Shown piece after piece: positions 29,612 to 44,738 of a stretch of 64,000 bases of DNA (the stretch's first letter is position 1; the number at the start of each line of letters is the position of its first letter). The notes beneath the pieces were generated by a model. That model was not told where the DNA came from, did no database searches, and saw only the letters and a program-made list of their open reading frames with translations. The stretch lies in NCBI RefSeq assembly GCF_020387415.1, contig NZ_JAGWCB010000010.1, positions 682,001 to 746,000 of the forward strand, written 5' to 3'. This stretch comes from Ideonella benzenivorans (GTDB lineage Bacteria > Pseudomonadota > Gammaproteobacteria > Burkholderiales > Burkholderiaceae_C). The translations under genes were made by a program, and so were the position numbers.

Positions 29612-29944
29612 TCAGCCCGGCTTCTTGACCCAGGCGTTGCACCAGCCGTTGGCGTGCACCTGCTTGCGGCCGAACATCGCACAGCCACCCCATTCGTCGG
29701 TGGCGGCGCCCTGGAAGAAGCTGCAGTCCATGCAGCGCTGCGAGGGCTGGTGCTTGGGGAACTTGGCGCTGTCGACCTGGGTGGTGTCGTGCTTGTAGCC
29801 CAGGGCCACGGCGGTTTCGTCGGTTTCCTCCAGGTGCTTGACCGGCAGGGCCGCCAACGCCGATTCGGACAAGGCGGCGCCCGCACCGGCCACACCCAGG
29901 GCCTGGATCATGAAGACACGACGGGAGAAGAAAGTGGCGTTCAT
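29612..29944 (-). CDS. High-potential iron-sulfur protein (HiPIP)
   Basis: A 110-residue periplasmic 4Fe-4S electron carrier. The signal peptide starts SRRVFMIQALGVAGAGAAL, a Tat-like twin-Arg pattern as expected for a cofactor-loaded HiPIP. Cluster cysteines are C71, C74, C88 and C102 (CMDCSFFQG...GGCAMF...GWCNAW), matching the family spacing. It follows the quinoprotein dehydrogenase by 94 nt on the same strand, suggesting that it accepts electrons from the alcohol-oxidation chain or passes them to a terminal oxidase; that role is inference. The start at 29944 is preferred over an ATG at 30019. Confidence 0.92.
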   Translation of the reverse strand: MNATFFSRRVFMIQALGVAGAGAALSESALAALPVKHLEETDETAVALGYKHDTTQVDSAKFPKHQPSQRCMDCSFFQGAATDEWGGCAMFGRKQVHANGWCNAWVKKPG

Positions 29945-29981
29945 GTTGCTGCTCCAACCGGACCAACGTGCAGCCCGGCCT

Positions 29982-30006
29982 GGGAGGGGACCTCCGGCCC
30001 CCTCCC
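29982..30006 (-). promoter_or_regulatory. Intercistronic hairpin between dehydrogenase and HiPIP genes
   Basis: A perfect 8-bp stem (GGGAGGGG / CCCCTCCC) with a 9-nt loop lies between the two genes. It has no T-run downstream, so it looks like a differential-stability or processing element rather than a terminator, allowing unequal HiPIP and dehydrogenase levels. Confidence 0.4.
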
Positions 30007-30038
30007 CGATCAAAGACAAATGGGAAGGAAAAGGCGGC

Positions 30039-31784
30039 TCAGCTCTTGGGCAGCTTGAACACCCACATCATGCCGCCCTGTTCCAGGAAGTTGACCCGCT
30101 TGGCCACCTCGCCCCCCCACAGCGGCACGGCGCCCCCCCAGCCCGAGGCCACGGCCACGTACTGCTCGCCGTTCTGCTGCCAGGTGATCGGGGGCGCCAC
30201 GATGCCGGAGCCGGTCTGGAACTGCCAGACGACCTTGCCGGTCTTGGCGTCCGCGGCCTTCAGGTAGCCCTCCGGCGTGCCCCAGAAGACCAGGTTGCCG
30301 CCGGTGGTCAGCACGCCGCCCCACAGCGGCGCGTTGTCCTTGACCTCCCAGACGATCTTGCCGGTCTTGGGGTCCACCGCGCGCAGCGCACCGATGTAGT
30401 CGTCGTTCAGCGGCTTGATGGTGAAGCCCGCGCCCAGGTAGGCCGCGCCCTTCTTGTAAGCCACCGGCTCATTCCAGATCTCCATGCCCCATTCATTGGA
30501 CGGCACGTAGAAGAGCCGGGTTTGCGGGCTGTAGGCCATCGGCATCTGGTTCTTGCCGCCCAGGAAGCCCGGCGCCGCGAAGACCTCGCTGCCCTTCTTG
30601 CCGTCGCCTGCGGTCGGGTCACCCGGGCGGTTTTCCGGCACGAAGTTCGGCCGGCCGGTCTTCATGTCGACGCCGGTGGCCCAGGTGATCTTCTTGACGA
30701 AGGGGAAGGCGTTCTGCAGCTTGCCGGTGGTGGCGTCCAGCACGTAGAAGAAGCCGTTGCGGTCGGCCTTGGCGCCCAGGCGCTTGCCGTCCTGGTCGTA
30801 GGTGATGAACTCGTTGGCGCCGTCGAAGTCCCAGCTGTCGTTGGGCGTGCCCTGGTAGTGCCAGACGATCTTGCCGGTCTTCACGTCGATGGCGACGGTG
30901 GAGCAGGAGAACAGGTTGTCCCCCTTGCGCAGGTGGCTGTTCCAGGGGGCGGGGTTGCCGGTGCCGAAGTAGGCCAGGCCGGTCTTGGCATCGTAGGTGC
31001 CGCCCAGCCAGGTGGCCGAGCCGCCGGTCTTCCACAGGTCGCCCGGCCAGGTCTGGTTGACGGTGCCGGAGATGCCGTTCTCCTTCTTGGTGCCGTCCTT
31101 GTCCCAGATGTAGCCCATGTGGCCTTCGACGGTCGGGCGGGTCCAGACCAGCTTGCCGGTCTTGGGGTCGCGCGCCTCGACGCGGCCGACCACGCCGAAC
31201 TCGCCGCCGGAGACACCGGTCAGCAGCAGGCCGTTGGCGATGATGGGCGCGGCGGTGGCCGAGTAGCCCGCGGCGTAGTCGTCGATCTTGGTCTTCCAGG
31301 CCAGCTCACCGGTGTCCTGCTTCAGGGCCACCAGCTGGGCGTCCAGCGTGGCGAAGATCACCAGGTTGTCGTAGAGCGCCGCGCCGCGGTTGATCACGTC
31401 GCAGCAGGGCATGATGCCCTCGGGCAGACGGTGCTCGTACTTCCAGAGCTTCTTGCCGGTGGTCGCATCCAGCGCATAGAGGCGCGAGTACGAGCCGGTC
31501 ACGAACATGCGGCCGTTGTAGACCACCGGTTGGGATTCCTGGCCGCGCTGCTTCTCACCGCCGAAGGAGAAGGCCCACGCGGGGGTCAGCTTGCTCACAT
31601 TGCTGGTGTTGATCTTCTTGAGCGGCGAGAAACGCTGGCCTTGCGGGGTGCCACCCCAGCTCAGCACATTGCCCGAGGCCGAAGACTCGGTGTCGATCAT
31701 CTGGTCGGTCACGCCGGCGGCGTGGCTGCTGGCCGCCGTGGCCAGGCCGATGGCCATCAGCAGGTTCAAGAGAGTCGGTCGCAT
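30039..31784 (-). CDS. PQQ-dependent alcohol dehydrogenase, predicted lanthanide type
   Basis: A 581-residue periplasmic quinoprotein of the methanol/ethanol dehydrogenase family (eight-bladed propeller), oxidising alcohols with PQQ and giving electrons to cytochrome c. The signal peptide is residues 1-22 ([15 protein letters not shown]). The vicinal-disulfide cysteines are C127-C128 (PCCDV). The active-site block is WDFDGANE: catalytic Asp319 followed by Asp321 at +2, the position where lanthanide-dependent enzymes (XoxF, PedH) carry Asp and calcium enzymes carry Ala or Ser. Trp-docking style repeats ([22 protein letters not shown]) recur through the protein. No cytochrome domain is fused. 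A strong RBS (GGAG) and a sigma-54 promoter lie upstream. It is closer to the ExaA/PedE/PedH type than to methanol-specific MxaF by overall look; substrate not decidable here. Confidence 0.93.
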
Positions 31785-31854
31785 GTTGTCTCCTCGTGGG
31801 TGGATGCCGCCCGGTGGACCGGGCTGGCGACGCAGTTGAGCGCCGTCAAACAGC

Positions 31855-31869
31855 GCAATGTCCGTGCCA
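31855..31869 (-). promoter_or_regulatory. Sigma-54 (-24/-12) promoter of the alcohol dehydrogenase
   Basis: On the minus strand TGGCAC-GGACA-TTGC matches the sigma-54 consensus TGGCAC-N5-TTGC exactly, with 10 nt between the GG and GC dinucleotides. The predicted start point is near 31843, leaving a leader of about 60 nt to the ATG at 31784. It shares the surrounding GGCCATGGCAC with the cytochrome promoter at 42870. Confidence 0.85.
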
Positions 31870-31974
31870 TGGCCGGGGCCGGTTTCCGGGGCCTGCGCCG
31901 GGCTGCACAGGCCGGTTTCTCCACGGGTTTCCCCGTTCGATCGCTCCAGGGTTGCTACAGGCTTGAGCAGACGG

Positions 31975-32004
31975 TGTCCCAGGCCGGCGCGCCGCGGCGG
32001 GACA
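31975..32004 (-). promoter_or_regulatory. Candidate activator site upstream of the dehydrogenase promoter
   Basis: An inverted pair TGTCCC (31975-31980) and GGGACA (31999-32004), 18 nt apart, lies 106-135 bp upstream of the -24 element, within enhancer range for a sigma-54 activator. The same half-sites recur upstream of pqqA and of the cytochrome gene. Inference from recurrence. Confidence 0.45.
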
Positions 32005-32011
32005 GCCCGGC

Positions 32012-33001
32012 TCAGCCCCTGCGCCCCGGCCAGCCGGGGCTGGCCCAACGCTGGCCGGTCTTGTCGACGGTCATCACCGCCACGCCCCAGGCCCGCGCCA
32101 CGGCCGCGGCCCCCTGTGGGCCGGCCATGAAGACGACCTTGGTCAGCGCATCGGCCAGGGCGCCCTCGTGCGCCAGCACGCTGACCTCGGCGAAGGCGGG
32201 CGGCGAGTCGCCGCTGCGCGGGTCCAGGATGTGGTGGTGGCGGAAGTCCGGCGTGAAGCAGCTCGGGTTGTCGGCCGAGGTGGCCAGGCAGGCGCCCTGC
32301 AGCCCCACCCGGTCCACCCAGGCATCGGCCTGACGCGGGTCGGCCACCGCCAGCGTCCAGGGCTGACCCTGGGCGTTGCGGCCCTGGGCGGCCCATTCGC
32401 CGGCATCGACCAGGGCATGGGCCACGCCGTGGCGGCGCAGCAGCTGGGCCGTCAGGTCGGCCGCATGGCCCTGGGCAATGCCGTTGAGCGTGACGCCCAT
32501 GCCCGGCCGCGCCAGGCGGATCTCGTTTGTTGCCAGCTGCAGGCCCTGCCAGCCCACCCGGGCGCGGGCGGCCTCGCGCTCGGCGGCGGTGGGCAGGCGA
32601 CCGGCCTGGCGGCAGCGGTCATACAAGGCCCAGAGCGGTTGCACCGTGACATCGAAGCTGCCCCCGCTGCGCGCCGAGATGGCCTGGGCGCGGCGCAGCA
32701 GGCCCAGCAGTTCGGCCGGCGGATGCGCCAGCCGCCCTTCGCGGTTCAGGCGCGAGAGCGCGCTGTCCGGGTCGAACAGGTTCATCTGCCCATGCAGGCC
32801 TTGCAGCAGGGCCACCGCGCCGTCCAGCGCCTCGCGCAGGCGCTCCGGGTCGGCATGGGCCGCCTGCAGGCTCAGCGTGGTGCCGAAGCCCAGCAGCGAA
32901 CGGGTGTCCCAGTGCAGGGGCTCGGCTCCCGCCGCGGCACGGGCCACGGCCGGGGCCAGCAGTGTCCCCAGGGCGCAGCGGAGGAACTGATGTCGGCGCA
33001 T
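32012..33001 (-). CDS. apbE: FAD:protein FMN transferase (ApbE)
   Basis: A 329-residue exported flavin transferase. ApbE attaches FMN from FAD to a Thr/Ser of FMN-binding domains such as those of NqrC, RnfG and NosR. It has a signal-like N-terminus (residues 1-24). Family motifs: [71 protein letters not shown], and [10 protein letters not shown]. The C-terminal metal-site region is intact. It lies 18 nt after the NosR-like gene, whose FMN-binding domain is the obvious target. ApbE in a pqq gene cluster is unusual. Confidence 0.93.
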
Positions 33002-33019
33002 GGCAAACCTCCTGCGGGT

Positions 33020-35185
33020 TCAGGCCGGCGCACGGCCGGGCTGCTGGGCCGACACCGCGCGGATCGGGATCACCCGCTGGCGCGCCTGGGCGATCAGCGG
33101 GGCACAGCGGGCCGGGTCGTCGTGGATGGCCACGCAGTCCAGGCACTGGAAGCACTCGGCGTAGTCCACCGTGCCCTCGGGCGCGATGGCCTGGTAGTGG
33201 CAGCGGTGGCGGCAGGTCTGGCAGGGCGTGCCGCACGCCATGCGTCGGGCGATCCAGTCCCAGCGGCGCAACCGGCCCAGCAGGGCCAGGCCGGCGCCCA
33301 AGGGGCACAGGTAGCGGCAGAAGCCCTTGTAGAGAAACAGCGACAGGGCCAGCAGCGCCACCGCCCAGGCCACCGCCGGCCCCGCCCGCTGGAAGCCCAG
33401 GGTGATGGCCGTCTTGAAGGGCTCGAACTCCACCACCCGGTCCACCCAGGCGCCGTGCACCGGCGCCACGGCGGCCACGCCGACGACCGCCGCCAGCACG
33501 ACGTACTTCAGGCGCTTGAGGCGCCGGTCCCAGGTTCTGTGCAAGCGCCGGGGCTTGATCCCCAGACGCTGCCCCAACTGCGACACCAGCTCCTGGAAGG
33601 CGCCGAAGGGGCACAGCCAGCCGCAGAAGGTGCCACGGCCCCACAGCACCAGGCTCACCGCCACCACGGCCCACAGCGCCACCGTCATCGGGTCCAGCAG
33701 GAAGAAGCCCAGGCCGCGCCCCTCGCGCAGGGCCTGGATCAAGGCCGTCAGGTTGACGATGGAGAGCTGCCCCTGCGCCCACCAGCCGATGAAGCCCAGC
33801 GTGAACAGCAGGAAGCCCACCCGCGCCCGCGGCAGCCAGTGCGGCCGGCTCACCCACACCGACGGCCGCAGCAGCGCAGCGCCCAGCAGGGCCAGCGCCA
33901 CGGCCAGCACGGCCAGATCCGGCAACCGGCTCTTCCAGGCCGCCACCCAGGGTGCCTGCGGCGGCTCGGGGCGGATCAGCTGGTCCTCCGGCAGGCGGTA
34001 GCGCAGCGTGAAGTCGCGGGCGATCTTCTCGACGAAGCCCGAGCCCTTGCTGCGCACCACCCGCAGGCCGAAGTCCAGCGGCTGGCCCGGGTCCAGCCCG
34101 GCCGCGCCGATGACGCGCATCACCTTGGCGTCGCGGCCGTTCCAGCCGGGCGGCAGCTTCAGCGGCTCGTCCAGGTCCAGGTCACGCAGCTCGATCGAGA
34201 GCTCGCCCTGGTGCAGGTTCAGGCGGTCGGGCACCGCACCGCGGGTGAAATCCTCGCCCACGAAGCTGTAGCCCGACAGCGGCACCACCAGCAGCGCCTG
34301 GTCGCCCGGGTCCAGCCGCCCTTTCAGATGCGCCCAACCGGCCTCGCTGAGCAGGTTGCGGCCGACGATGGGCGCGCTCAGCCAGGCCACCGCCAGCTCG
34401 GCCAGCGGCGGCGCACCCGGCGGCGCCGGCTGCTCCACGCCGCTGCCGGCAAAGGCCTGCTCGCCCTTGGCGGCGCCCACGGTCAGCACCTTCAGCAGGC
34501 CCGCGCGCTGCAAGGCCGCCGCGTCCATCGGCCGCCAGCGGTCCTCGCGCACCCGGGCCAGGCTGGCCGGGTCGGTGCCACCGGCCCAGCCCATCTTGGC
34601 CCGGGCCACCTGCAGCGCGGCGGACAGCACGCTCTGGTTGACGATGCGCACCGAGGCGGTGGCCTTGGCCACCCCGTCAAAGGTGACGTTGGCGCTGCTG
34701 GCCTGCACGCCGCGCGGCCCCGGTCCACCGATGCGCACCGACTGGCGCAGCGACAGGCCCTTGTACTGCTCGACGAAGTGCAGCAGCGGTGCCGGCCCCA
34801 GGCCATCGACGAACACCGGCTCATGCTGGGACACCACCTGCACATCGACCAGGCGGCCCTGCGGGTCCAGCACGATCAGCAGGTCCACCGGCGTGCCGGA
34901 GAAGCCCGGCAGCGCGGCGAAATCCACCGACTCGAAGACGTAGCCGGCCAGCGAGCGGGAGGTGGTCTCCGGCCGGAACACCGGCCAGACCGGCAGCTGC
35001 GCATCGCGCTCGCCCAGCACCAACGGCGCCGGCAGCCGGGCTTGCAGCGCCGCCGCATCCAACTGCCCCGCCCAGCCCGGCAGGCTGGCCAGCAGCAGCC
35101 AGACGGCCGTCCAGGCGGCCACCCCGTGGCGGCCGATCGCCACCGCCCGCAGCCACAGGCGCAGGGCCACGGTGGGGGCGCTCAT
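33020..35185 (-). CDS. NosR/NirI-like FMN-binding, 4Fe-4S polyferredoxin membrane protein
   Basis: A 721-residue membrane redox protein. Order of parts: signal/first helix (residues 10-40); periplasmic FMN-binding domain (about 60-190), where FDGVAKATASV keeps the Thr (T176) expected to be flavinylated by ApbE although the usual SGAT reads AKAT; a further periplasmic region; then transmembrane helices from about residue 400. Two CxxxCP motifs follow (FCGWLCPFG and FCRYLCPLG), and a cytoplasmic double-cluster segment CGTPCQTCRHRC and CFQCLDC...CAP. NosR carries electrons for nitrous oxide reductase, but no nos genes are visible. The start overlaps the stop of the ABC permease (ATGA), and apbE follows, so it is tied to the pqq operon. 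Role in alcohol oxidation is inference. Confidence 0.88.
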   Translation of the reverse strand: MSAPTVALRLWLRAVAIGRHGVAAWTAVWLLLASLPGWAGQLDAAALQARLPAPLVLGERDAQLPVWPVFRPETTSRSLAGYVFESVDFAALPGFSGTPVDLLIVLDPQGRLVDVQVVSQHEPVFVDGLGPAPLLHFVEQYKGLSLRQSVRIGGPGPRGVQASSANVTFDGVAKATASVRIVNQSVLSAALQVARAKMGWAGGTDPASLARVREDRWRPMDAAALQRAGLLKVLTVGAAKGEQAFAGSGVEQPAPPGAPPLAELAVAWLSAPIVGRNLLSEAGWAHLKGRLDPGDQALLVVPLSGYSFVGEDFTRGAVPDRLNLHQGELSIELRDLDLDEPLKLPPGWNGRDAKVMRVIGAAGLDPGQPLDFGLRVVRSKGSGFVEKIARDFTLRYRLPEDQLIRPEPPQAPWVAAWKSRLPDLAVLAVALALLGAALLRPSVWVSRPHWLPRARVGFLLFTLGFIGWWAQGQLSIVNLTALIQALREGRGLGFFLLDPMTVALWAVVAVSLVLWGRGTFCGWLCPFGAFQELVSQLGQRLGIKPRRLHRTWDRRLKRLKYVVLAAVVGVAAVAPVHGAWVDRVVEFEPFKTAITLGFQRAGPAVAWAVALLALSLFLYKGFCRYLCPLGAGLALLGRLRRWDWIARRMACGTPCQTCRHRCHYQAIAPEGTVDYAECFQCLDCVAIHDDPARCAPLIAQARQRVIPIRAVSAQQPGRAPA

Positions 35186-36054
35186 CCGGCCAGTCCCCGG
35201 CCGCCAGCGCGCCCCAGCCCGCGGCGCGGGTCGTAGGCCCAACAGGACAGCGCGAAACAGACAACCAGCGTGCCCAGCACGACCCACGGTGACGCCCCGG
35301 CCGACTGGCCGTGGAAGGCGAAGCGCATCCACTCCACCGCATGGGTGAAGGGATTGAGCCGAGCCACCGCGTTGACCCAGCCGGCGCCAGAGGCCTGCAG
35401 CTTCCACAGCGGGTAGAGCGCGGTGGACAGGAAGTACAACGGGAAGATCACGAAATTCATCGCCCCGGCGAAGTTCTCCAGCTGGCGCACCGTGACCGAG
35501 AGCAGCAGCCCGAGGGCGGCCAGCATCAGCGCGCTGGCCAGCAGCGCCCACGCTCCTTGCAGCGCCGCCAGGGGCTGCCAGGGCAGCGTGCTGCCCATCA
35601 GCGCCGCCACCGCCAGAAAGGCGGCCACCTGCACCAGGCTCAGCACCGCGGCCGCCAGCAGCCGGGCCGCCAACAGCAGTGGGCGCGGCAGCGGCGCGGT
35701 CAGCAGCAGGCGCATCAGGCCCATCTCGCGGTCGTAGACCAGCGCCAGCGAGGACTGCATGCCGTTGAACAGCATGACCATGCCCATCAGCCCGGGCAGC
35801 ACATAGGTGGCGTAGTCCACCGCAGCGCCGTAGGGCGCGGTGGGCTGGCCACCCAGGTCATGGCGGAAGCCCGCGGCGAACACCGCCAGCCACAGCAGCG
35901 GCCGCACCAGGGCCGAGACCAGGCGGCCGCGCTGCTGCACAAAGCGCTGCAGTTCCCGCCCGACGATGGCCCCGACCGCCCCGGCGACGTGAGCCAGGGC
36001 GGTGCGACGGCGCGGCAGCGACGCGAACACGGTGGCGGAATGGGGCGAACGCAT
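35182..36054 (-). CDS. ABC-2 type transporter permease, PedC-like
   Basis: A 290-residue inner-membrane permease with about six helices. The ABC-2 pattern is visible in VLPGLMGMVMLFNGMQSSLALVYDREMGLMRLLLTAPLPR and the later FVIFPLYFLSTALYPL...LNPFTHAVEWMRFA. Permeases of this kind occur beside PQQ-dependent alcohol dehydrogenases in Pseudomonas ped and similar clusters, with unknown cargo. The ATP-binding subunit is immediately upstream (39 nt) and the NosR-like gene overlaps downstream. The N-terminal 20 residues look unlike family, so a start a little downstream (e.g. inside VGRELQRF) is conceivable. Confidence 0.87.
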   Translation of the reverse strand: MRSPHSATVFASLPRRRTALAHVAGAVGAIVGRELQRFVQQRGRLVSALVRPLLWLAVFAAGFRHDLGGQPTAPYGAAVDYATYVLPGLMGMVMLFNGMQSSLALVYDREMGLMRLLLTAPLPRPLLLAARLLAAAVLSLVQVAAFLAVAALMGSTLPWQPLAALQGAWALLASALMLAALGLLLSVTVRQLENFAGAMNFVIFPLYFLSTALYPLWKLQASGAGWVNAVARLNPFTHAVEWMRFAFHGQSAGASPWVVLGTLVVCFALSCWAYDPRRGLGRAGGRGLAG

Positions 36055-36093: not shown

Positions 36094-36810
36094 TCAGTGC
36101 CGGGTGGCGTGCAGAAAGGCCGCTTCCAGGGTGTCGCCCCCCAAGGTCCGGGTGACTGCCTCGGGCGGGCCATCGGCCAGTAACTGGCCGTGGTGCAGCA
36201 CCAGCACCCGGTCGGCCTGGGCGGCCTCGTCCACCAGGTGGGTGGCCCACAGCACGGTCAGGCCGTGCTCGCGCACGCCGGCCTGCAGGTCGGCCAGCAG
36301 CTCCTGGCGCGAACGCGGGTCCAGACCCACGGTGGCCTCGTCCATCAGCAGCAGGGCCGGGGCGTGCAGCAGGGCCCGCGCCAGCTCCACCTTGCGGCGC
36401 TGCCCGCCCGAGAGTGCGCGCGCCGGCCGGTCCAGCTGCTCGGTCAGCCGCAGGCGCCGGGCCAGCGCCTCAATGCGGTCCTGCGCGTCGGCCGCCACCA
36501 GGCCGTGCAGGCGGGCATGGAAGAACAGGTTGCGCCGCACGGTCAGGTCCAGGTCCAGCGAGGGCTGTTGGAACACCACGCCCAGCCGCGCCAGCGCCCG
36601 GGTGGGCTGGCGCGCCAGCGAGCAGCCGGCCACGCTCACCTCGCCCTCGTCGGCCGCGAACAGGCCGCTGAGCACCTGGAACAGCGTGCTCTTGCCAGCG
36701 CCATTGGGGCCCAGCAAGGCGGTGAAGCTGCCCGCCGGGATGTCCAGATCCAGGCGGTCCAGGGCCACCAGGGTGCCATAACGCTGGGTCAGCCCCCGCA
36801 CGCTCAGCAT
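36094..36810 (-). CDS. ABC transporter ATP-binding protein of PQQ alcohol-oxidation cluster
   Basis: A 238-residue ABC ATPase. Walker A GPNGAGKST (about residues 35-43), signature LSGGQRRKVELARALL, Walker B LLLMDEATVGLD, and H-loop ATHLVDEA are intact. Its length fits the ATP-binding subunit that accompanies PQQ-dependent alcohol dehydrogenase systems. Its start overlaps the end of pqqE by 7 nt and it precedes the PedC-like permease, so the transporter is made with the PQQ biosynthesis proteins. What it transports is not known; export of a toxic intermediate or PQQ has been speculated for the family. Confidence 0.92.
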   Translation of the reverse strand: MLSVRGLTQRYGTLVALDRLDLDIPAGSFTALLGPNGAGKSTLFQVLSGLFAADEGEVSVAGCSLARQPTRALARLGVVFQQPSLDLDLTVRRNLFFHARLHGLVAADAQDRIEALARRLRLTEQLDRPARALSGGQRRKVELARALLHAPALLLMDEATVGLDPRSRQELLADLQAGVREHGLTVLWATHLVDEAAQADRVLVLHHGQLLADGPPEAVTRTLGGDTLEAAFLHATRH

Positions 36811-38006
36811 GCCCCGGCCGGCGTGGAGACCGGGTCCGCAGAGAGGGCCAGGGAGGCGGCGTCCCCGCGGAACACCAACCCGCCCGCCTTGGCCGCGCCG
36901 GGCACGAAGCGCAGCGGTGCCGTGGTGGCAGCGCCGCGCTGGCGGGCACCGTCGAGCACGGCATCGATCAGTCCGCGGGCCGGGCTCTTGGGGCAGACCG
37001 GGTCGGTGGCCGCGGCGTTGCCCGTCACCAGGAAGGCCTGGCAGCGGCAGCCCCCCATGTCGGTGTGGCGCTCATCGCAGCTGCCGCAGGTCGGGTCCAT
37101 CCAGTCCTGGCCCCGGTAGGCATTGAAGCCGCGGCTCTCGAACCAGGCGTCATGCACCGGGGTGTCGCGCAGGTTGGGAAGGTCCAGCCCGGGCAGCATC
37201 CGCGCGCTGTGGCAGGGCAGCGCCACACCATCGGGCGCCACCACCAGGAACACCGATCCCCAGCCGGCCATGCAGGGCTTGGGCTTGGCGTCGGCGTAGT
37301 CGGGCGAGACCCACAGCACCTTCATGCGCGAGACGCCGCGCTCGCGGTAGGCCATGACCATCGCCTCGGCGTCGCGCAGCTCGTCGCGGGTGGGCATCAG
37401 GGCCTCGCGGTTGAGCCAGGCCCAGCCGTAGTACTGGGTGTTGGCCAGCTCCAGGTAGTCCGCGCCCATGCGGTCGGCCATCTCGATGATGCGGCCCACA
37501 TGCGGCAGGTTGAAGCGGTGCATCACGCAGTTGAGCACCATCGGGTAGCCCAGCGACTTGATGATGCCTGCCACCTTGTTCTTGAGCTCGAAGGTGCGGG
37601 TGGAGCTGATGAAGTCGTTGAGCTCGCGGGTGGAGTCCTGGAAGGAAAGCTGGATGTGGTCCAGGCCGGCTGCCTTCAGCGCCCGGGCCCGGGCCTCGGT
37701 CAGGCCCACGCCCGAGGTGATCAGGTTGGTGTAGTAGCCCAGGCCGTGGGCGTGGGCCACCAGTTCCTCCAGGTCCTCGCGCAGCAGCGGCTCGCCGCCG
37801 GAGAAGCCCAGTTGCACCGCCCCCATCGCCCGTGCCTCGGCGAGCACCCGCTTCCAGGTCGCGGTGTCCAGCTCCTGGTCATGGCGGGCGTAGTCCACCG
37901 GGTTGGAGCAGAAGGCGCAGTGCAGCGGGCAGCGGTAGGTCAGCTCGGCCAGCAGCCAGAACGGCGGCTTGGTCGTGGCCGGGGATGGGGCGGTGAGCGG
38001 GGCCAT
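36804..38006 (-). CDS. pqqE: PQQ biosynthesis radical SAM protein PqqE
   Basis: A 400-residue radical SAM enzyme that, with PqqD as peptide chaperone, forms the carbon-carbon link between Glu and Tyr of PqqA. The radical SAM cluster motif is CPLHCAFC (Cx3Cx2C, about residues 26-33), followed by GFSGGEPLLR. The C-terminal SPASM-like region has the auxiliary-cluster cysteines (CGSCDERHTDMGGCRCQAF and a later CPKS). The C-terminus runs about 30 residues beyond the usual end. The start follows the pqqD stop by 29 nt; the ABC ATPase overlaps its 3' end. Confidence 0.97.
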   Translation of the reverse strand: MAPLTAPSPATTKPPFWLLAELTYRCPLHCAFCSNPVDYARHDQELDTATWKRVLAEARAMGAVQLGFSGGEPLLREDLEELVAHAHGLGYYTNLITSGVGLTEARARALKAAGLDHIQLSFQDSTRELNDFISSTRTFELKNKVAGIIKSLGYPMVLNCVMHRFNLPHVGRIIEMADRMGADYLELANTQYYGWAWLNREALMPTRDELRDAEAMVMAYRERGVSRMKVLWVSPDYADAKPKPCMAGWGSVFLVVAPDGVALPCHSARMLPGLDLPNLRDTPVHDAWFESRGFNAYRGQDWMDPTCGSCDERHTDMGGCRCQAFLVTGNAAATDPVCPKSPARGLIDAVLDGARQRGAATTAPLRFVPGAAKAGGLVFRGDAASLALSADPVSTPAGAC

Positions 38007-38035: not shown

Positions 38036-38308
38036 TCAGACCAGCCAGCCGTGCTCGCCGGCCTGCCCCAGGAAGGACTGCACGTCGTCGGCCAGCCCGG
38101 TCTGCTGGAAGCACTGTTCCAGGTCCGCGATGATGGCGGCCACATCGCGCTGGCCATCGCAGCGGCGCAGGATCTCGGCCGCCGGCGTGTTGAGCCGCAC
38201 CATGCCCTCGGGGTAGAGCAGCACCCAGGCCTCTTGCGCCGGCTCGTACTGCAGGCGAAACAGCGGCGCGATGCGCGGCGACACAGACAGCGGCAGGGAT
38301 GCGTTCAT
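38036..38308 (-). CDS. pqqD: PQQ biosynthesis peptide chaperone PqqD
   Basis: A 90-residue PqqD (RRE-like fold) that binds the PqqA peptide and presents it to PqqE. Family features: [44 protein letters not shown]. The start overlaps the pqqC stop by 4 nt (ATGA). It is a separate gene here, neither fused to pqqC nor to pqqE. It works in the cytoplasm with PqqE, encoded 29 nt downstream. Confidence 0.95.
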
Positions 38309-39072
38309 GGCCGGCGCTCCTCGGGCAGATCATCGGGATAGGCGCGCTCGATGGCGTCGAGCATGCACCACAGCACATCGAGCTTGAAATCCAGGATCTC
38401 CAGCGCCCGCTCCTGGCGGGCCCGGGTGCTGCACCAACGCCGCGCCACTTCCAGGCCGTGCTCCACGTCGCGCGTGGCCAGCGGGATGCGGCTGCGGAAG
38501 TAGCCCAGGCCCTCGGGCTGGATCCAGGGGTAGAGCGAGGGCCAGCCGGCCAGGCGGTCGGCGTGGATGCGCGGCGCGAACATCTCGGTCAGCGAGGAGA
38601 TGGCGGCTTCCTCCCAGGGCGACTGGGCGGCGAAGTTCAGATAGGCATCGACCGCGAAGCGCACGCCCGCCTGCACGTGGCGGTGGCTCCAGAGGTCCTC
38701 GCGGGCCAGACCGGTGGCCTCGCCCAGGCGGCTCCAGGCCTCGATGCCGCCGGCGTTGCTGCCCTCGTAGTCGCCCCGGCCATCGTGGTCCAGGATGCGC
38801 TCGACCCAGCGGCGCCGCTCCTCGCGGTCCGGGCAGTGGGCCAGCACCGCCGCATCCTTCTGCGGAATGCGGACCTGGTAGTAGAAGCGGTTGGCCACCC
38901 AGCCGCGCACCTGGAAAGGCGCCAGCTCGCCGCGGTTGAGGCGGCCGTTGAAGGGGTGGTGGATGTGGTAGCGCGATTCGCGCGCGCGCAGCCGGGCCTC
39001 GAACTCGGCCCAGCCCCAGGGGCTGCGCTCGTCGAAGGCCGGGGGGGCACTGTCAAAGACCAGGGCGTTCAC
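38305..39072 (-). CDS. pqqC: Pyrroloquinoline-quinone synthase PqqC
   Basis: A 255-residue cofactor-less oxidase catalysing the final eight-electron oxidation and ring closure to PQQ. Family blocks: [18 protein letters not shown] (N-terminal His/Asn), [34 protein letters not shown], and the [18 protein letters not shown] region with active-site His residues. Its start overlaps the pqqB stop by 4 nt. Length matches family (about 250). Confidence 0.96.
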
Positions 39073-40001
39073 AGCGTGATCTCCATGCCGTCGTAAGCCA
39101 CCTCGACACCGCGGGCGGTCAGCAGGGCGCGCTGCGCGCTGCCTTCGTCCAGGATGGGGTTGCTGTTGTTGATGTGGATGAGCACCTTGCGGCGCGCCAG
39201 GGTGGTCTGCAGCACGTCCAGCATGCCGGGGCGTCCAGGCTGGCCGGTCTGCGGCAGGTGGCCCATCTCGGCGGCGGACTTGGCACTCAGGCCGGCGGCC
39301 TGCATCTCGTCTTCGCGCCAGAAGGTGCCATCGACCAGCAGGCAGTCGGCTCGGCGCATCCAGCCCAGCTCCAGATCGCCCACTTCGGCCAGGCCGGGGG
39401 AATAGAACAGGGTCTGGCCGTCGCGCCGGTCCTCGATCAGCAGCGCGATGTTGTCGCCCACCACCTGCTCGCGCCGATGCGGCGAGTACGGCGGCGCCTT
39501 GCCGGGGATGGCGATGGCGGTGAAGGCCAGGTCCTCGAAGCCGGGGATCTCGAATTCGGCGCTCTGCTGCTCGCCGCCCACCGGCACCATGTGCCAGCGG
39601 GTGCCGCAGTAGTGCTCCAGCACATTGAGCAGGGGCAGGCCGGTGGTCAGGTCCTCGAACACGCAGGGCGTGGCGTAGAGGTCGATGCGCGGGCCTTCAC
39701 GCAGCCCCAGCAGGCCGGTGACGTGGTCGATCTGCGCATCCATCAGCACCACCGCCTCGATGGGCGTGTGGCGCAGCCCCTGGCGCGGATGCAGGGGGGG
39801 ATGCTGCCGGATCTGCGTGCCGATGTCCGGCGAGGCATTGAGCAGCACCCAGCGCTCGCCATCGGGCGAGACGGCAATGGAACTCTGGGTGCGGGCGTGG
39901 GCGGCGATCCGCCCCTGCCGCTGGCCGGCACACAGGGCACAGTTGCAGTTCCACTGCGGGAAGCCGCCACCCGCACCGGAGCCGAGCACGAGAATCTTCA
40001 T
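39069..40001 (-). CDS. pqqB: PQQ biosynthesis protein PqqB
   Basis: A 310-residue metallo-beta-lactamase-fold protein, proposed to hydroxylate the cross-linked Glu-Tyr intermediate. The N-terminus [21 protein letters not shown] is diagnostic. The metal-binding motif appears as [13 protein letters not shown] rather than canonical HxHxDH, as is usual for PqqB, and [10 protein letters not shown] is present at the C-terminus. The start at 40001 gives the family N-terminus; the in-frame ATG at 40076 lies in the pqqA-pqqB gap. A stem-loop precedes it. Confidence 0.96.
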
Positions 40002-40041
40002 GGTGTGGTGACCCAGAGGGTTCGTGGGAAGGGGTGGCCAG

Positions 40042-40063: not shown

Positions 40064-40086
40064 TGCCACCCGGCACAGGCCGACGC

Positions 40087-40161
40087 TCAGCGCGCGGCGA
40101 TGTACATCGTGATTTCGAAGCCGAAGCGCAGGTCTTGGTAGGCGGGGGTGGTCCAGGTCAT
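40087..40161 (-). CDS. pqqA: PQQ precursor peptide PqqA
   Basis: A 24-residue ribosomal peptide, too short for most gene finders. It starts [16 protein letters not shown] and carries the substrate residues Glu16 and Tyr20 (spacing E-x3-Y) that PqqE cross-links to build PQQ. It ends IAAR. The start follows GGAGACCTCC. It heads the pqqABCDE operon and has its own sigma-54 promoter 67 nt upstream. Confidence 0.96.
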
Positions 40162-40227
40162 GGAGGTCTCCATCAGGGTCGGTCTGTTGCCGGCGTGGGC
40201 CCATCCCGCGCCAGACACCGATCCTTT

Positions 40228-40243
40228 TGCAAAGCCCATGCCC
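40228..40243 (-). promoter_or_regulatory. Sigma-54 (-24/-12) promoter of pqqA
   Basis: On the minus strand GGGCATGGGCTTTGCA matches TGGCAC-N5-TTGC at 8 of 10 defined positions, with the invariant GG and GC spaced by 10 nt. The expected start point is near 40217, about 56 nt before the pqqA ATG. Weaker than the other two sites but correctly placed. Confidence 0.75.
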
Positions 40244-40386
40244 TTTCACCTCGAACCGGTGGGGTTTAGGGGTTCATCCCGAGCGCCGCCCGCCCTTCGC
40301 CCGAGCAGCCCCGCCGTGAGCGCGGGTTTGCCTGCATGCCCACCGTCGCGGCGGACGCCGCGCCCTGCCCGGACCGGTCCCCGGGG

Positions 40387-40444
40387 TGTCTCAGGCTGGG
40401 ACAGCCCAGGGACAGCCACCGCCGCGCTGGCACAGGGTTGTCCC
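40387..40444 (-). promoter_or_regulatory. Candidate activator-binding cluster upstream of pqqA
   Basis: Four related half-sites: TGTCTC (40387), GGGACA (40398), GGGACA (40409) and TGTCCC (40439). The first two form an inverted repeat TGTCTC-AGGCT-GGGACA. The cluster is 144-200 bp upstream of the promoter, a normal enhancer distance for sigma-54 activators. Confidence 0.45.
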
Positions 40445-40467
40445 CAGCCGCCGCCGGCCTGCCCCGT

Positions 40468-42627
40468 TCAGAGCTTCTGCGTCCAGCGCAGCTTGCGGTA
40501 GATGGTGTTGCGGCTGATGCCCAGCTGCTTGGAAGCCAGCGAGATGTTGCCCTGTGCGGCCTCCACAGCCGCCCGGATCAGGTCGATCTCGGCCTCGCCC
40601 AGGGTGCGCGGCCCGGCCGGCGCCGGCTCTGCCACGGCACTGGCGGGCACAGCGGCGGCCGGCTCGGCGAACACGGGCTCGCCGCGCGCGGCCCAGGGCG
40701 CCGCCGCCCAGACCGGGCGCTCGACGGGCCGGGGCGCGGCAGACGGGACGGCGGCGGCTGGCGCCGGCATCTGGCGGCGCACGTCATCCAGGAAGTCGTC
40801 GGACAGATGCTGTTCGGTGATCAAAGGCTCGCCGGCGGCCATCACGGCCGCGGTGCGCAGCACGGTCGCCAACTGGCGCACGTTGCCGGGCCAGTGGTAG
40901 TGCAGGAACATCGCCATCACCGCGGGGCTGATCTCCAGGCTGCCCGACACCCCCAGCGCGCTGAGGATGCGCCGCGCCACCACCGCCAGGTCGCTGCGGT
41001 CCCGCAGGGCCGGCAGACGCACCACCAGACCATTGAGCCGATAGTAGAGGTCCTCGCGGAACTTGCCCTGTTCGATCATGCCGCGCAGGTCGCGGTGGGT
41101 GGCGCTGACCACCGCGATGTCCACCGGGATGGACTTCTGGCTGCCCAGCGGCGTGACGCAGCGCTCCTGCAGCACGCGCAGCAGGTGGGCCTGCAGGCCC
41201 AGCGGCATGTCGCCGATCTCGTCCAGGAACAGCGTGCCGCCATTGGCCTGCACAATGCGCCCGGTGGCCCCCTTGCGCCGTGCGCCGGTGAAGGCCCCCT
41301 CCTCGTAGCCAAACAGTTCGGCCTCGATCAGCGTCTCCGGGATGGAGGCACAGTTCACCGCGACGAAGGGCTGCTTGGCCCGCTCCGAATCCTGGTGGAC
41401 CGCACGCGCCAGCAGCTCCTTGCCGGTCCCCGTCTCGCCCAGGATCATCAGCGGAATGTCGCGGTTGAGCACCCGCTGCACCTTGCGGACCACGGCCTCG
41501 ATCTGTGCATCGCCCGTGGCCAGGTAATGCAGACCCGACAGGCGGGACTCCCCACCCAGGGGATCGGCCCGCAGCGCGACCGACTCCGGCGCTGCGGCGC
41601 GGGCCGCCGGCATCACGGACACCTCCGCGGCCTGCGCTGCGCCCGTCAGCGGCTCCGTTCCCAGCGGGATTTCCGCCACTGGGGTGAGCCGGTGCAACGC
41701 CCCGCTGATGCGGGGGCTGGCATGCAGCTGGCGCCCATTGGACAGCTGCAGGCGCATGGGTTGAGCCAGCGGCGCGCGCAAGTGGTCCACCAGCATGCCC
41801 GCGCTGATGTTGAACAGGCTCTCCAGCGTGTGCAGCCGCACCGCCGCGCTGCTCATGTCCAGCAGGTCGAGCGCGGCCCGGTTGGCCCCCTGGATGCGGC
41901 CGTCCGGCGCGATCACCACGATGCCTTCCAGCAAGGTGCCGATGAACTCAGGCCGGATGTGGAAGTGCAGACGCAACCGGTCCCCGCTGTCATCGGTCAG
42001 CCAGTGGTTCTCGATCATGCGGGCCGACATGCGCACCAGGCCCATGGTGTGCTGGTGGTAGGAGCGCTGATCGCCGCTGACATCCAGCACCCCCAGGATG
42101 TTGCCCCGCGGATCGAAGATCGGCGCGGCCGAGCAGGTCATGAAGCTGTTGACATGCATGAAGTGCTCGGTGGCATGGACCAGGGTCGGCCGCTCCTCCA
42201 CCAAGGCCGTGCCCACCGCGTTCGTGCCCTTGGACTGCTCGGCCCAGTTCACCCCGGGCGACAGGGCCACCTTGTGAGCCCGCCCCATGAAGCCGTCGTC
42301 CCCCACTGTGTGCAGGACAGTGCCCTGCGCGTCGGTGAGCGCGATCATGCTCTCGGTGTTGACGATCTGTTCGAGCAGCAGCTCCATCACCGGCGCGGCC
42401 CGGCTCAGCAGGCGCAGGTTGCGGTCCCGGGCCACGCTCAGGTCACCGCGCAGCATGGGCTCGAAGTCCGGCCGCTCCACGCGGGACAGGCCCAGCGCCG
42501 CGCAGCGCAGATGGGACTGCTCGATGCGCTGGACCCGCGCCCGCACCTCCGCCGTGGGCGAAGTCCAGCCCCCCGCCCGCCCGCCGGTGTGCTCATCGGT
42601 CGAAGGCTCGCCCGTCGAGATCGTCAT
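40468..42627 (-). CDS. Sigma-54-dependent Fis-family activator, AcoR-like
   Basis: A 719-residue enhancer-binding protein. The N-terminal third is a GAF-like sensor (about residues 80-230, with VNSFMTCSAAPIFDPRGNILGVLDVSG, as in AcoR-type regulators), followed by a PAS-like segment (VVIAPDGRIQGANRAAL). The AAA+ domain has Walker A GETGTGKE (397-404) and the sigma-54 contact loop GAFTGA (444-449), with FLDEIGDMPL. The C-terminus is a Fis helix-turn-helix (GNISLASKQLGISRNTIYRKLRW). The start at 42627 follows AGGAGAACC; an ATG 13 codons earlier is less likely. It lies between two sigma-54 promoters, and a third is 9 kb downstream, so it probably senses an alcohol-related signal and drives the whole PQQ locus. 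Confidence 0.92.
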   Translation of the reverse strand: MTISTGEPSTDEHTGGRAGGWTSPTAEVRARVQRIEQSHLRCAALGLSRVERPDFEPMLRGDLSVARDRNLRLLSRAAPVMELLLEQIVNTESMIALTDAQGTVLHTVGDDGFMGRAHKVALSPGVNWAEQSKGTNAVGTALVEERPTLVHATEHFMHVNSFMTCSAAPIFDPRGNILGVLDVSGDQRSYHQHTMGLVRMSARMIENHWLTDDSGDRLRLHFHIRPEFIGTLLEGIVVIAPDGRIQGANRAALDLLDMSSAAVRLHTLESLFNISAGMLVDHLRAPLAQPMRLQLSNGRQLHASPRISGALHRLTPVAEIPLGTEPLTGAAQAAEVSVMPAARAAAPESVALRADPLGGESRLSGLHYLATGDAQIEAVVRKVQRVLNRDIPLMILGETGTGKELLARAVHQDSERAKQPFVAVNCASIPETLIEAELFGYEEGAFTGARRKGATGRIVQANGGTLFLDEIGDMPLGLQAHLLRVLQERCVTPLGSQKSIPVDIAVVSATHRDLRGMIEQGKFREDLYYRLNGLVVRLPALRDRSDLAVVARRILSALGVSGSLEISPAVMAMFLHYHWPGNVRQLATVLRTAAVMAAGEPLITEQHLSDDFLDDVRRQMPAPAAAVPSAAPRPVERPVWAAAPWAARGEPVFAEPAAAVPASAVAEPAPAGPRTLGEAEIDLIRAAVEAAQGNISLASKQLGISRNTIYRKLRWTQKL

Positions 42628-42669
42628 GTCGGTTCTCCTGCCACCCGCGAACGGGCTTGTCTCCATCGG

Positions 42670-42753
42670 TGTCCCGGGTCAACCCTGAGGGCGCTTGTCC
42701 CTCGGCTGCCCAAGACTGTTCATTCCTGCAACAGGGATCAGGTCCCATGTCTC
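42670..42753 (+). promoter_or_regulatory. Candidate activator sites upstream of the cytochrome promoter
   Basis: TGTCCC at 42670-42675 and 42696-42701 and TGTCTC at 42748-42753, with an intervening dyad CTGTT-N9-AACAG (42716-42734), lie 117-200 bp upstream of the -24 element. TGTCTCAG is also found in the pqqA cluster. The site definition is inferred from recurrence in three regions. Confidence 0.4.
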
Positions 42754-42869
42754 AGAAGGCCGTCCACCAGGTCGTCACCTGCGCCACAGAGGCCGCGAAG
42801 CGATTCAAGCAGATGCCCGGACCGGAGGGAATCCGTGCAACAACTGTTCCCGCGTGAAGCATTTGGCCA

Positions 42870-42884
42870 TGGCACATGGTTTGC
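42870..42884 (+). promoter_or_regulatory. Sigma-54 (-24/-12) promoter of the cytochrome-MoxJ genes
   Basis: TGGCAC-ATGGT-TTGC is an exact consensus match with correct GG-N10-GC spacing. The expected start point is near 42896, giving a leader of about 37 nt to the ATG at 42933, which has a GGAGA ribosome-binding site. Confidence 0.87.
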
Positions 42885-42932
42885 GTTGGACGGCGGTACG
42901 GGACCTCACATCCACAAACAGGAGACAAGCAC

Positions 42933-43439
42933 ATGACCCCGACCGCTTCCCGCCAACGATTGGCCCCTCTGGCGCGCTGGGCCCGCCTGGGCACCCTGCT
43001 GTGCAGCCTGGGCGCCGCCGGCCTGGCCGCCTGGGCCCACGGCGACGTGACCCCGCAGCCGATCGACACCACCGGCCTGCCCAACCTGGGCGAAGGCTGG
43101 CGCACCGAGAACCCCTACAGCGGCAATGAGCTGGCGATCCGCGTTGGCACGTCCGGCTTCAACCAGAACTGCGCCCGCTGCCATGGCCTGGAGGCCATCT
43201 CCGGCGGCATCGCGCCCGACCTGCGCCGGCTGGACAACGACTGCGTGGGCATGCCCGACGCCGATCAGCGCAAGGCCTGCAAGACGGAGATGGACGAGTA
43301 CTTCATCACCACCGTGCGCCATGGCCGCACCCGCAACGGCGCGGTCTACATGCCGCCGTTCGAGGGCGTGCTGAGCCAGGAGGCCCTCTGGACCATCAAG
43401 GCCTACCTGGAAACCCGTCGCGAAAAGCCCATGCCCTGA
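42933..43439 (+). CDS. Four-cysteine c-type cytochrome of alcohol oxidation (PedF-like)
   Basis: A 168-residue periplasmic monohaem cytochrome c. The signal peptide is about residues 1-35 (LGTLLCSLGAAGLAAWA). Haem attaches at CARCH (80-84); Met107 or the Met in VYMPPF is a candidate axial ligand. Two extra cysteines, C104 and C116, flank GMPDADQRKA, the pattern of the four-cysteine cytochromes linked to methanol and alcohol dehydrogenases (cytochrome c-550 PedF in Pseudomonas). It probably accepts electrons from the quinoprotein dehydrogenase encoded 11 kb away on the other strand. First gene of a three-gene plus-strand unit. Confidence 0.9.
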   Translation: MTPTASRQRLAPLARWARLGTLLCSLGAAGLAAWAHGDVTPQPIDTTGLPNLGEGWRTENPYSGNELAIRVGTSGFNQNCARCHGLEAISGGIAPDLRRLDNDCVGMPDADQRKACKTEMDEYFITTVRHGRTRNGAVYMPPFEGVLSQEALWTIKAYLETRREKPMP

Positions 43440-43458
43440 GCGGGCAGGAGGTTCTCCC

Positions 43459-44301
43459 ATGCACACCACCGATCGGAGCCGCCGCGCCCTGCTGCGCGGC
43501 CTGGCCGCGGCCGCGCTCGTCAGCCCGCTGTGGCCGGCGGCGGCCACCACCCTGACCCAGGTGCGCGAACGCGGCACCCTGAAGGTCGGGCTCTACAACG
43601 ACATGCCGCCGTTCCACCAGAACGGTCAGGGCATCGACGTGGATCTGGCCCGGGCCCTGGCTGACGCGCTGGGCGTGAAGCTGGCCCTGCTGCCCTTCAA
43701 CGCCGACGACAACATGAACGACGACCTGCGCAACATGGTCTGGAAGGGGCATTACCTGGGCTATGGGCCGGCCGACGTGCTGCTGCACGTGCCGGTGGAC
43801 GGGCCGCTGATGGACGCCAACCCGCAGGTGCTGATCTTCGGCCCCTATTGCCGCGAACGCGTCGCCATCGCCCGCCGGCTGGACGCCCTGCCCCGGCTGG
43901 ACACGCTGACCCCGCTGGTCGGCCAGCCGGTGGCGGTGCCCGGCCAGACACTGGCGGGCTGGCTGCTGATCGGCGCCAACAACGGCCTGCTGCGCGACAC
44001 CCTGCGCACCCAGTGGAAGGACGGCACCGAGGCCGCCCGCGCCCTGTTGCAGGGTGAGGTGGTGGCCGCCGCCGGGCTGGCGTCCGAGCTGCAGAGCGTG
44101 ATCCAGAGCGACCCGCGCTACGCCATCACCCCGCTGCCGATGCCCCGTGCCCCACGCGATGGCTGGGCCGTGGGCATGGCCGTCAAGCGCGATGCGCAGG
44201 ACCTGGCCGAAGCCCTGAGCGGCGCGCTGGGCACCCTGGGCCAGAACGGCCGGATGCGCCAGATCTTTGCCCAGCAGCACCTGCCCTGGCAGGCCGCCTG
44301 A
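43459..44301 (+). CDS. MoxJ-like periplasmic substrate-binding protein linked to quinoprotein dehydrogenases
   Basis: A 280-residue exported protein of the type 2 periplasmic-binding fold. The N-terminus has a Tat-like SRRALLRGLAAAALV. The domain begins LTQVRERGTLKVGLYNDMPPFHQ and includes GIDVDLARALADALGVKLALL. Homologues are encoded beside methanol and alcohol quinoprotein dehydrogenases (MoxJ/XoxJ group), where they are thought to help mature or activate the enzyme rather than transport a solute. It lies 19 nt after the cytochrome gene. That it assists the dehydrogenase here is inference from context. Confidence 0.85.
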   Translation: MHTTDRSRRALLRGLAAAALVSPLWPAAATTLTQVRERGTLKVGLYNDMPPFHQNGQGIDVDLARALADALGVKLALLPFNADDNMNDDLRNMVWKGHYLGYGPADVLLHVPVDGPLMDANPQVLIFGPYCRERVAIARRLDALPRLDTLTPLVGQPVAVPGQTLAGWLLIGANNGLLRDTLRTQWKDGTEAARALLQGEVVAAAGLASELQSVIQSDPRYAITPLPMPRAPRDGWAVGMAVKRDAQDLAEALSGALGTLGQNGRMRQIFAQQHLPWQAA

Positions 44302-44339
44302 ACCGCCCCTTCCGAACAACACCCCGAGGAGACACTACG

Positions 44340-44738
44340 ATGACCCGATTCCTGCCCCTGCTGGCCGCGGCACTGCCGCTGGCCCTGGCCGCCACCCAAC
44401 CGGCCCTGGCGGCCGACAACAACGATGCGGTGATGAAGGCCCTGGCCACCCACAGTGGCTGCTTCACCTGCCACCATGTGGAGCCGGGCTCCAAGGGGCC
44501 TGACGGCATGGCCCCGATCGGGCCGGACTGGCAGGACGTGGCGGACAAGTACCGCGGCAACCCCGACGCGCTGGACGCCCTGACCCACACGGTGATGACG
44601 GGGTCCAACCCCTATGCCAGCCACTGGAAGGGCCGGGTCAGCGGCCTGGCCATGCCGCCCAATGCGGTGGCGGTGTCTGAAGCGGATGCGCGTCGGCTGG
44701 TGCAGTGGATTCTGTCGCTGCCACCCGCCCAGAAGTGA
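44340..44738 (+). CDS. Small c-type cytochrome
   Basis: A 132-residue periplasmic monohaem cytochrome c. The signal peptide is residues 1-24 (LLAAALPLALAATQPALA). The haem motif is CFTCH (about 41-45), and the axial Met is probably in GLAMPPNAV. It resembles cytochrome c551/c552 carriers. It is the third gene of the plus-strand unit behind the sigma-54 promoter, 38 nt after the MoxJ-like gene, and could pass electrons on to an oxidase. The RBS is GAGGAGAC. Confidence 0.9.
   Translation: MTRFLPLLAAALPLALAATQPALAADNNDAVMKALATHSGCFTCHHVEPGSKGPDGMAPIGPDWQDVADKYRGNPDALDALTHTVMTGSNPYASHWKGRVSGLAMPPNAVAVSEADARRLVQWILSLPPAQK

Follow-up and report, generated by a model that had tools for sequence, protein, structure and literature searches.

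A putative sigma-54 regulon with a palindromic enhancer at the PQQ alcohol oxidation locus of Ideonella benzenivorans

A 64,000-nucleotide stretch of the Ideonella benzenivorans genome (RefSeq assembly GCF_020387415.1, contig NZ_JAGWCB010000010.1, positions 682,001–746,000; further referred to as the window) contains a locus for alcohol oxidation dependent on pyrroloquinoline quinone (PQQ), and this locus raises the question of whether its dehydrogenase, cytochrome and cofactor synthesis genes answer to a single regulator. Judged by its sequence and by that of its relatives, the locus very probably constitutes one sigma-54 regulon, in which the locally encoded GAF/AAA+/Fis activator would act via 17-bp palindromes at three promoters. 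Support for this reading is good at the dehydrogenase and cytochrome promoters; at the pqqA promoter the reading is likely. A coherent sigma-54 regulon had been proposed in a preliminary description of the window, and it is supported by the conservation of the elements, by the palindrome common to these promoters and by the absence of this palindrome from the other exact sigma-54 sites of the genome. That description had overlooked the putative enhancer itself: TGYTCCA-N3-TGGARCA, a palindrome that precedes each of the two exact elements and recurs in looser form at pqqA.

Promoter elements and palindromes

Sigma-54 sites were sought with the pattern TGGCAC-N5-TTGC (GG-N10-GC spacing), mismatches being counted over its 10 positions. 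The elements and palindromes of the three promoters are listed below.

31855..31869, minus strand: −24/−12 element of the dehydrogenase gene, TGGCACGGACATTGC; exact; predicted 5'-end near 31843
31953..31969, minus strand: palindrome of the dehydrogenase promoter, TGCTCAAGCCTGTAGCA
40229..40243, minus strand: probable −24/−12 element of pqqA, GGGCATGGGCTTTGC; 8 of 10 positions, GG-N10-GC intact; predicted 5'-end 40217
40387..40403, minus strand: possible palindrome of pqqA, TGTCCCAGCCTGAGACA; one mismatch to the longer, looser consensus, outside the shorter pattern
42717..42733, plus strand: distal palindrome of the cytochrome promoter, TGTTCATTCCTGCAACA
42845..42861, plus strand: proximal palindrome of the cytochrome promoter, TGTTCCCGCGTGAAGCA; begins 25 bp before the −24 element
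42870..42884, plus strand: −24/−12 element of the cytochrome 1 gene, TGGCACATGGTTTGC; exact; predicted 5'-end near 42896

Both exact elements lie where the preliminary description had placed them. Its pqqA match of 8 out of 10, given as 40228–40243, is real, but it starts at 40229.

The exact pattern occurs 23 times in the genome (4.49 Mb), compared to 6 occurrences of the reversed pattern; with at most one mismatch these numbers are 371 and 271. Two of the three exact matches in the window are located directly upstream of PQQ genes. Matches with up to two mismatches number 85 in the window, compared to 101 expected from shuffled sequences. The exact class is strongly enriched, and the looser classes are uninformative on their own. 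As two-mismatch matches are common in the window, the pqqA site must rest on comparison with other genomes. Genes downstream of the other exact sites (10 examined) include nifH, a homocitrate-synthase-like gene and a class-V aminotransferase gene, which fits real sigma-54 promoters; these three are loci L119, L120 and L121, and the organism looks nitrogen-fixing. A rough estimate of coding potential places 9 of 20 scored exact sites outside the locus inside coding-like open reading frames (ORFs), so some of the exact matches are not promoters. There is one match to rpoN in the genome.

Further sites in the window include the third exact match at 61197–61211 (plus strand), which has no palindrome, and no coding-like ORF was found just downstream of it. 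The sequence GGGAACAGTTGTTGC at 42837–42851 (minus strand) retains GG-N10-GC and points toward the activator gene, a possible promoter for self-control; it has two mismatches, a class at chance level in the window. No sigma-70-like promoter was found in 29500–45000 using a strict consensus, for which just 0.5 occurrences are expected by chance, and sigma-70 control is thus only weakly rejected.

The palindrome emerged from a search of all dyads of 5-base half-sites with gaps of 3–11 upstream of 30 promoters, some of which come from close relatives and hence are not independent. The top dyad, TGTTC-N7-GAACA, was present at 10 of the 30 (control mean 0.33), and TGCTC-N7-GAGCA and TGTTG-N7-CAACA surfaced at the same gap. 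The relaxed form TGYTC-N7-GARCA with at most one mismatch was found at 19 promoters (control mean 0.90, maximum 4). We then used 47 held-out promoters, all with a −24/−12 site having at most one mismatch; two of the initial 49 (L189 and L216) were dropped, as their genomes were already in the discovery set. The relaxed palindrome was found at 26 of them at gap 7, 11 copies being exact. With other gaps the number falls to 0–4 (none exact), the reversed pattern gives 1, and shuffled sequences give a mean of 0.85. Among 42 distinct sites, positions 11 and 12, which are outside the search pattern, are occupied by T in 37 and by G in 34, respectively, and the consensus was therefore extended to the 17-bp form given above.

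A stricter pattern of the palindrome occurs six times in the genome, three times at promoters of the PQQ locus, a proportion that is partly circular because the pattern was derived from the sites it then finds; the held-out test is free of this circularity. Near the remaining matches (C13:614711, C14:515498 and C19:109266) there is no convincing sigma-54 site, the third having one two-mismatch match. The relaxed palindrome is absent within 300 bp upstream of all 21 other exact sigma-54 sites of the genome. Six of nine further dehydrogenase genes from the same genus have the palindrome.

At 11 of 50 sites, belonging to cytochrome promoters of several genera, the distance from the start of the palindrome to the −24 element is exactly 25 or 26 bp. 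Loci with this close-set copy include the window (42845–42861), L009, L010, L208, L209, L210, L217 and L228, and in some of them it is the sole palindrome found. In two Paraburkholderia loci (L013 and L014), a different PQQ dehydrogenase gene (40% identity) has a one-mismatch sigma-54 site, and 105–116 bp upstream of it is TGCTCCACGATGCAACA, close to the palindrome of the window.

Conservation in relatives

In the first comparison, which included the window, sites were present upstream of 14 of 14 cytochrome genes (13 exact, one with one mismatch), 5 of 6 dehydrogenase genes (4 exact; L011 has none) and 5 of 5 pqqA genes, three of the latter in the two-mismatch version. The element TGGCACGGACATTGC is identical in L093, L094, L009 and L131. 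When only non-window loci and sites with at most one mismatch are counted, the numbers are 13 of 18 for cytochrome-like genes, 11 of 15 for dehydrogenase-like genes (L010 was left out, having no upstream sequence) and 2 of 7 for pqqA, while among random segments such sites are present in 434 of 19400. The five cytochrome genes without a site encode distant homologues (27–50% identity).

The wider sample gave a similar result at the same mismatch limit. Sites precede 21 of 24 order-level dehydrogenase orthologues (15 exact, 17 genera; L204, with no upstream sequence, was left out) and 28 of 29 family-level cytochrome orthologues (17 exact, 21 genera). At the thresholds used, 26 of the 399 genomes of the order, representing 19 of 159 genera, had a match to the dehydrogenase; for the cytochrome the family gave 54 of 200 genomes and 40 of 141 genera. 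The 29 cytochrome loci are non-self loci from these 54 genomes, which include that of the window. The control made for the wider sample (868 of 10800) is inflated, as it was drawn from short loci that include the promoters themselves, and the fair control is that of 434 in 19400 random segments. According to the preliminary description, loss of the −24/−12 dinucleotides in close relatives retaining the genes would refute the regulon; they are kept for the dehydrogenase and cytochrome genes, and for pqqA only where the pqq genes sit in this cluster.

Chance matches in GC-rich DNA might in principle account for such elements, since two-mismatch matches are common and 9 of the 20 scored exact sites fall in coding-like ORFs. 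For the dehydrogenase and cytochrome sites a chance origin is refuted by conservation far above the control, and the contrast between dehydrogenase paralogues described below also opposes it; we assign this explanation a negligible probability.

The dehydrogenase is of the PedH type, being closest among solved structures to 6zcv and 6zcw (820 and 818 bits, compared to 655 bits for 1flg), which we take to be Pseudomonas putida PedH, and having the motif WDFD. This motif corresponds to DxD, an extra aspartate two residues after the catalytic one, presumably the lanthanide signature; thus the enzyme probably uses a lanthanide. In the same genus, an exact site precedes all nine further orthologues (80–97% identity; the ninth is from G023) at positions from −86 to −104, and together with L093, L094 and the window, all 12 orthologues found in the genus. 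In contrast, these genomes contain 13 other PQQ dehydrogenase genes, five of about 54% and eight of 40–45% identity, and just one of them is preceded by a site of at most one mismatch. In G003, G004, G007 and G022 the dehydrogenase gene is on a different contig from the activator–cytochrome pair, or about 2 Mb away. WDFD is present in all eight of the nine genus orthologues that were read, and the five enzymes at about 54% identity (class 2) have WDFS. At the order level, the motif is WDFD or WDYD in all 25 orthologues. Several distant class-3 PQQ dehydrogenases also carry DxD, and hence the promoter cannot be predicted from this motif by itself. A wider idea is that in Burkholderiales a dedicated sigma-54 activator, with an enhancer code of its own, governs the lanthanide-type dehydrogenase and not its calcium-type paralogue, so that the choice of the rare-earth enzyme would be made at sigma-54 promoters, the GAF domain sensing an alcohol or even lanthanide status; we consider this speculative and rather doubtful.

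Five loci (L027, L033, L046, L051 and L054) contain distant PQQ dehydrogenase genes (34–40% identity) with sites of at most one mismatch near related activators and without the palindrome, as if sigma-54 control had arisen or diverged several times.

The pqqA element GGGCATGGGCTTTGC is identical in the window and the congeners L093, L094 and L171, and in each of these four cluster-type genomes a loose palindrome lies about 160 bp before it. In Variovorax sp. WS11 a one-mismatch site, CGGCACACCTCTTGC, is found at nearly the same distance from pqqA (−67 to −70), and pqqA of G015 is preceded by an exact site. It may be argued that the regulon consists of the dehydrogenase and cytochrome promoters only, the pqq operon being transcribed from another promoter and the pqqA element being a look-alike. 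Indeed, it has two mismatches, a class no more frequent in the window than expected by chance, and eight congeners whose pqq operon is of another kind (PqqB identity 51–54%) have no site near pqqA, though one has a two-mismatch match 321 bp upstream. Against this stand the identity of the element in the four cluster-type genomes, each with its loose palindrome, and the better Variovorax and G015 sites, and we consider a restricted regulon unlikely, although a modest chance of it should be granted. The pqqA promoter proposed in the preliminary description is unconvincing by sequence alone, but gains support from its retention in three congeners and from the elements of Variovorax sp. WS11 and G015. 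Given the eight congeners, cofactor synthesis does not always belong to the regulon; likely it joined where pqq joined the cluster, and its promoter is the weakest of the three.

The activator and alternative regulators

The regulator gene is located between pqqA and the cytochrome 1 gene.

40468..42666, minus strand: activator with GAF domain, sigma-54 AAA+ domain with GAFTGA, and Fis-type helix-turn-helix (HTH_8)

The preliminary description had given this gene as 40468–42627 and noted the GAFTGA loop. The loop and the GAF/sigma-54/HTH_8 architecture are confirmed, but the ORF extends to 42666, and 42627 corresponds to a later in-frame ATG. The protein thus has the AAA+ domain with GAFTGA and the Fis-type helix-turn-helix of an enhancer-binding protein, and the upstream palindromes provide its putative enhancer, with only the loose copy at pqqA. 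Among the matches listed, all NCBIfam models matched by the activator scored below their own cut-offs. AcoR of acetoin catabolism controls acetoin dehydrogenase genes linked to it; the genes identified around the activator of the window have to do with PQQ, transport, cytochromes and the dehydrogenase.

An activator homologue adjoins the cytochrome 1 gene in 28 of the 29 family loci, divergently in 27 and in tandem in L211; it was not found in L212. In a comparison of 11 loci with the palindrome, the helix GNIS-ASK-LGISRNTIYRKLR is common to nine, while five of six loci without the palindrome have a clearly different helix beginning with W. Thirteen genomes of the genus were compared by their best activator match; G005 and G012 were read solely around this match, and G008 was judged by the match alone (43% identity). 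The activator–cytochrome pair is present in ten genomes, nine of which have the PedH-type dehydrogenase, compared to none of the other three. The tenth, G002, has the pair without this dehydrogenase, its assembly being 80% complete.

The elements, the palindromes, their conservation and the activator domains are evident from the sequences; the local activator is the predicted binder of the palindrome. It would bind as a dimer to TGYTCCA-N3-TGGARCA upstream of the three promoters; upon a signal received by the GAF domain, probably an alcohol or its aldehyde, it would assemble into an AAA+ ring, whose GAFTGA loops would remodel RNA polymerase–sigma-54 waiting at the −24/−12 elements. The predicted operons are pqqABCDE–ABC–nosR-like–apbE, dehydrogenase–HiPIP (high-potential iron-sulfur protein), and cytochrome 1–binding protein–cytochrome 2.

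Several observations weigh against this scheme. Sites with at most one mismatch are absent before the dehydrogenase genes of L011, L186, L190 and L205 (64–76% identity), before those of L032 and L036 (34–38%) and the fragment in L054, and before the cytochrome genes of L235 and the five distant homologues; moreover, the site of L229, one of the 28, is ill placed at −9. At pqqA the window site has two mismatches, and only two of the seven non-window genes have a better one. The palindrome, allowing one mismatch, is absent from 21 of the 47 held-out promoters and from three of the nine further dehydrogenases of the genus, and for an enhancer, a copy that starts only 25 bp ahead of the −24 element is unusually placed. 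The correspondence between helix and palindrome is imperfect as well: in L013 and L014 the palindrome is accompanied by a helix that matches at just 14 of 22 positions, and L015 has no palindrome although its helix matches at 17 of 22. Finally, an activator paralogue (57% identity) is encoded at G000:C9:109757–111763.

This paralogue gives substance to an alternative in which the promoters depend on sigma-54, but another activator occupies the palindromes, alone or along with the local regulator, which would have some other or overlapping role. Its helix, GNVSLAARQLGVSRNTVYRALR, resembles the recognition helix of the activator. However, its gene adjoins genes for a T2SSE-type ATPase and moeA, and the 19.5 kb examined around it contain neither an exact palindrome nor a sigma-54 site having one mismatch or fewer. 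In addition, an activator homologue stands beside cytochrome 1 in 28 of the 29 family loci. We therefore regard another palindrome binder as improbable. Still less credence can be given to a circuit in which sigma-54 is served by a LuxR-type two-component regulator, with the GAF activator secondary: there is a precedent, exaA of Azospirillum brasilense, named in PMC6115532, but the conserved partner beside the promoters considered here is the GAF/AAA+ activator, although no search aimed at PedR- or EraR-like proteins was made in this genome.

A second activator paralogue is located near T2SSE-type ATPase and moeA genes both in the genome of the window and in G005, with homologues in three more congeners (L104, L101 and L107–L109). 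In G012 (L103, 11260–15090), an aldehyde dehydrogenase gene with a one-mismatch −24/−12 site is followed immediately by the gene for an activator homologue (60% identity).

Gene content, known systems and implications

The other genes of the locus are as follows.

29612..29944, minus strand: HiPIP-like protein, named from its own sequence; downstream of the dehydrogenase gene on the same strand
30039..31784, minus strand: PQQ alcohol dehydrogenase, PedH-like, WDFD
32012..33001, minus strand: ApbE-like flavin transferase; model score below the curated cut-off
33020..35200 (start approximate), minus strand: NosR-like membrane protein, Fer4_5; model score below the curated cut-off
35182..36054, minus strand: ATP-binding cassette (ABC) permease, TIGR03861 (PedC-type)
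36094..36810, minus strand: ABC ATPase, TIGR03864 (linked to PQQ alcohol dehydrogenase)
36804..38000 (start approximate), minus strand: pqqE
38036..38308, minus strand: pqqD-like ORF, named by position, size and sequence
38305..39072, minus strand: pqqC
39069..40001, minus strand: pqqB
40090..40173, minus strand: pqqA
42933..43439, plus strand: c-type cytochrome 1, divergent to the activator gene
43459..44301, plus strand: periplasmic binding protein, SBP_bac_3 family
44340..44738, plus strand: c-type cytochrome 2

All genes named in the preliminary description (pqqABCDE, two ABC components, NosR-like, ApbE-like, dehydrogenase, HiPIP-like ORF and cytochromes) were recovered. The minus-strand genes from pqqA to the ApbE-like gene are closely packed, and the dehydrogenase gene stands separately downstream. 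A HiPIP-like homologue adjoins the dehydrogenase gene in L009, L093 and L094. The nearest named loci are those of Variovorax sp. WS11 (plasmid) and a Piscinibacter assembly. PqqB identity is 95–96% in three congeners, 51–54% in eight others and 81% in the plasmid locus of Variovorax sp. WS11, and this split suggests that the pqq block (38036–40173) has moved horizontally.

A precedent for a PQQ alcohol dehydrogenase under sigma-54 is exaA of A. brasilense, where sigma-54 acts with a LuxR-type response regulator (Singh et al. 2017, J Bacteriol, as cited in PMC6115532). The partner in the window is instead a GAF/AAA+/Fis protein with a putative palindromic enhancer, and the regulon would include cytochromes and probably cofactor synthesis. 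Hence the arrangement varies a known kind of control rather than founding a new one: the preliminary description, which had called an all-sigma-54 circuit a distinct solution, overstated this point, although the activator in A. brasilense is of the LuxR type. The Pseudomonas ped/exa systems (PedS2/PedR2, AgmR) share with the locus the PedH-type dehydrogenase, the PQQ genes and the PedC-type ABC permease; there, pedE and pedH are controlled via PedS2 and the LuxR-type PedR2 (PMC6115532). This contrast is not absolute, as a 2026 review (PMC12997753) lists the sigma-54-dependent CbrB among ped-relevant Pseudomonas proteins and states that CbrAB may activate yiaY.

BmoR of Thauera butanivorans is an alcohol-responsive activator of a sigma-54 promoter (PMC6366067); its target is the alkane monooxygenase. 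In Ralstonia solanacearum, growth on ethanol needs rpoN1, and the AcoR-like Rsc3129 is predicted to control the aldehyde dehydrogenase gene exaC (PMC4676750); the part of that paper available to us describes no PQQ dehydrogenase promoter or enhancer. The aldehyde dehydrogenase–activator pair of G012 resembles the AcoR–ExaC pair. From the BmoR analogy and the G012 pair, the likeliest inducer would be an alcohol or an aldehyde. A region involved in bug–Burkholderia symbiosis combines a sigma-54 Fis-family regulator, which is among the genes upregulated in symbiosis, with genes for PQQ synthesis, a PQQ alcohol dehydrogenase and a binding protein (PMC9088363, in which the part available contains no promoter or enhancer analysis). 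PQQ does not occur in the main text of a sigma-54 survey (PMC12316311), and no published description of the regulon or the palindrome was found in the literature searched, which did not cover most subscription journals.

Thus the analysis predicts, across many genera, the promoters, the activator and the 17-bp DNA site that would switch on PQQ-dependent alcohol oxidation. It ties sigma-54 control to the PedH-type (lanthanide) enzyme and not to the WDFS (presumably calcium) type of the same genus. The regulon would offer an alternative to the two-component model known from Pseudomonas, and its activator is a candidate alcohol biosensor.

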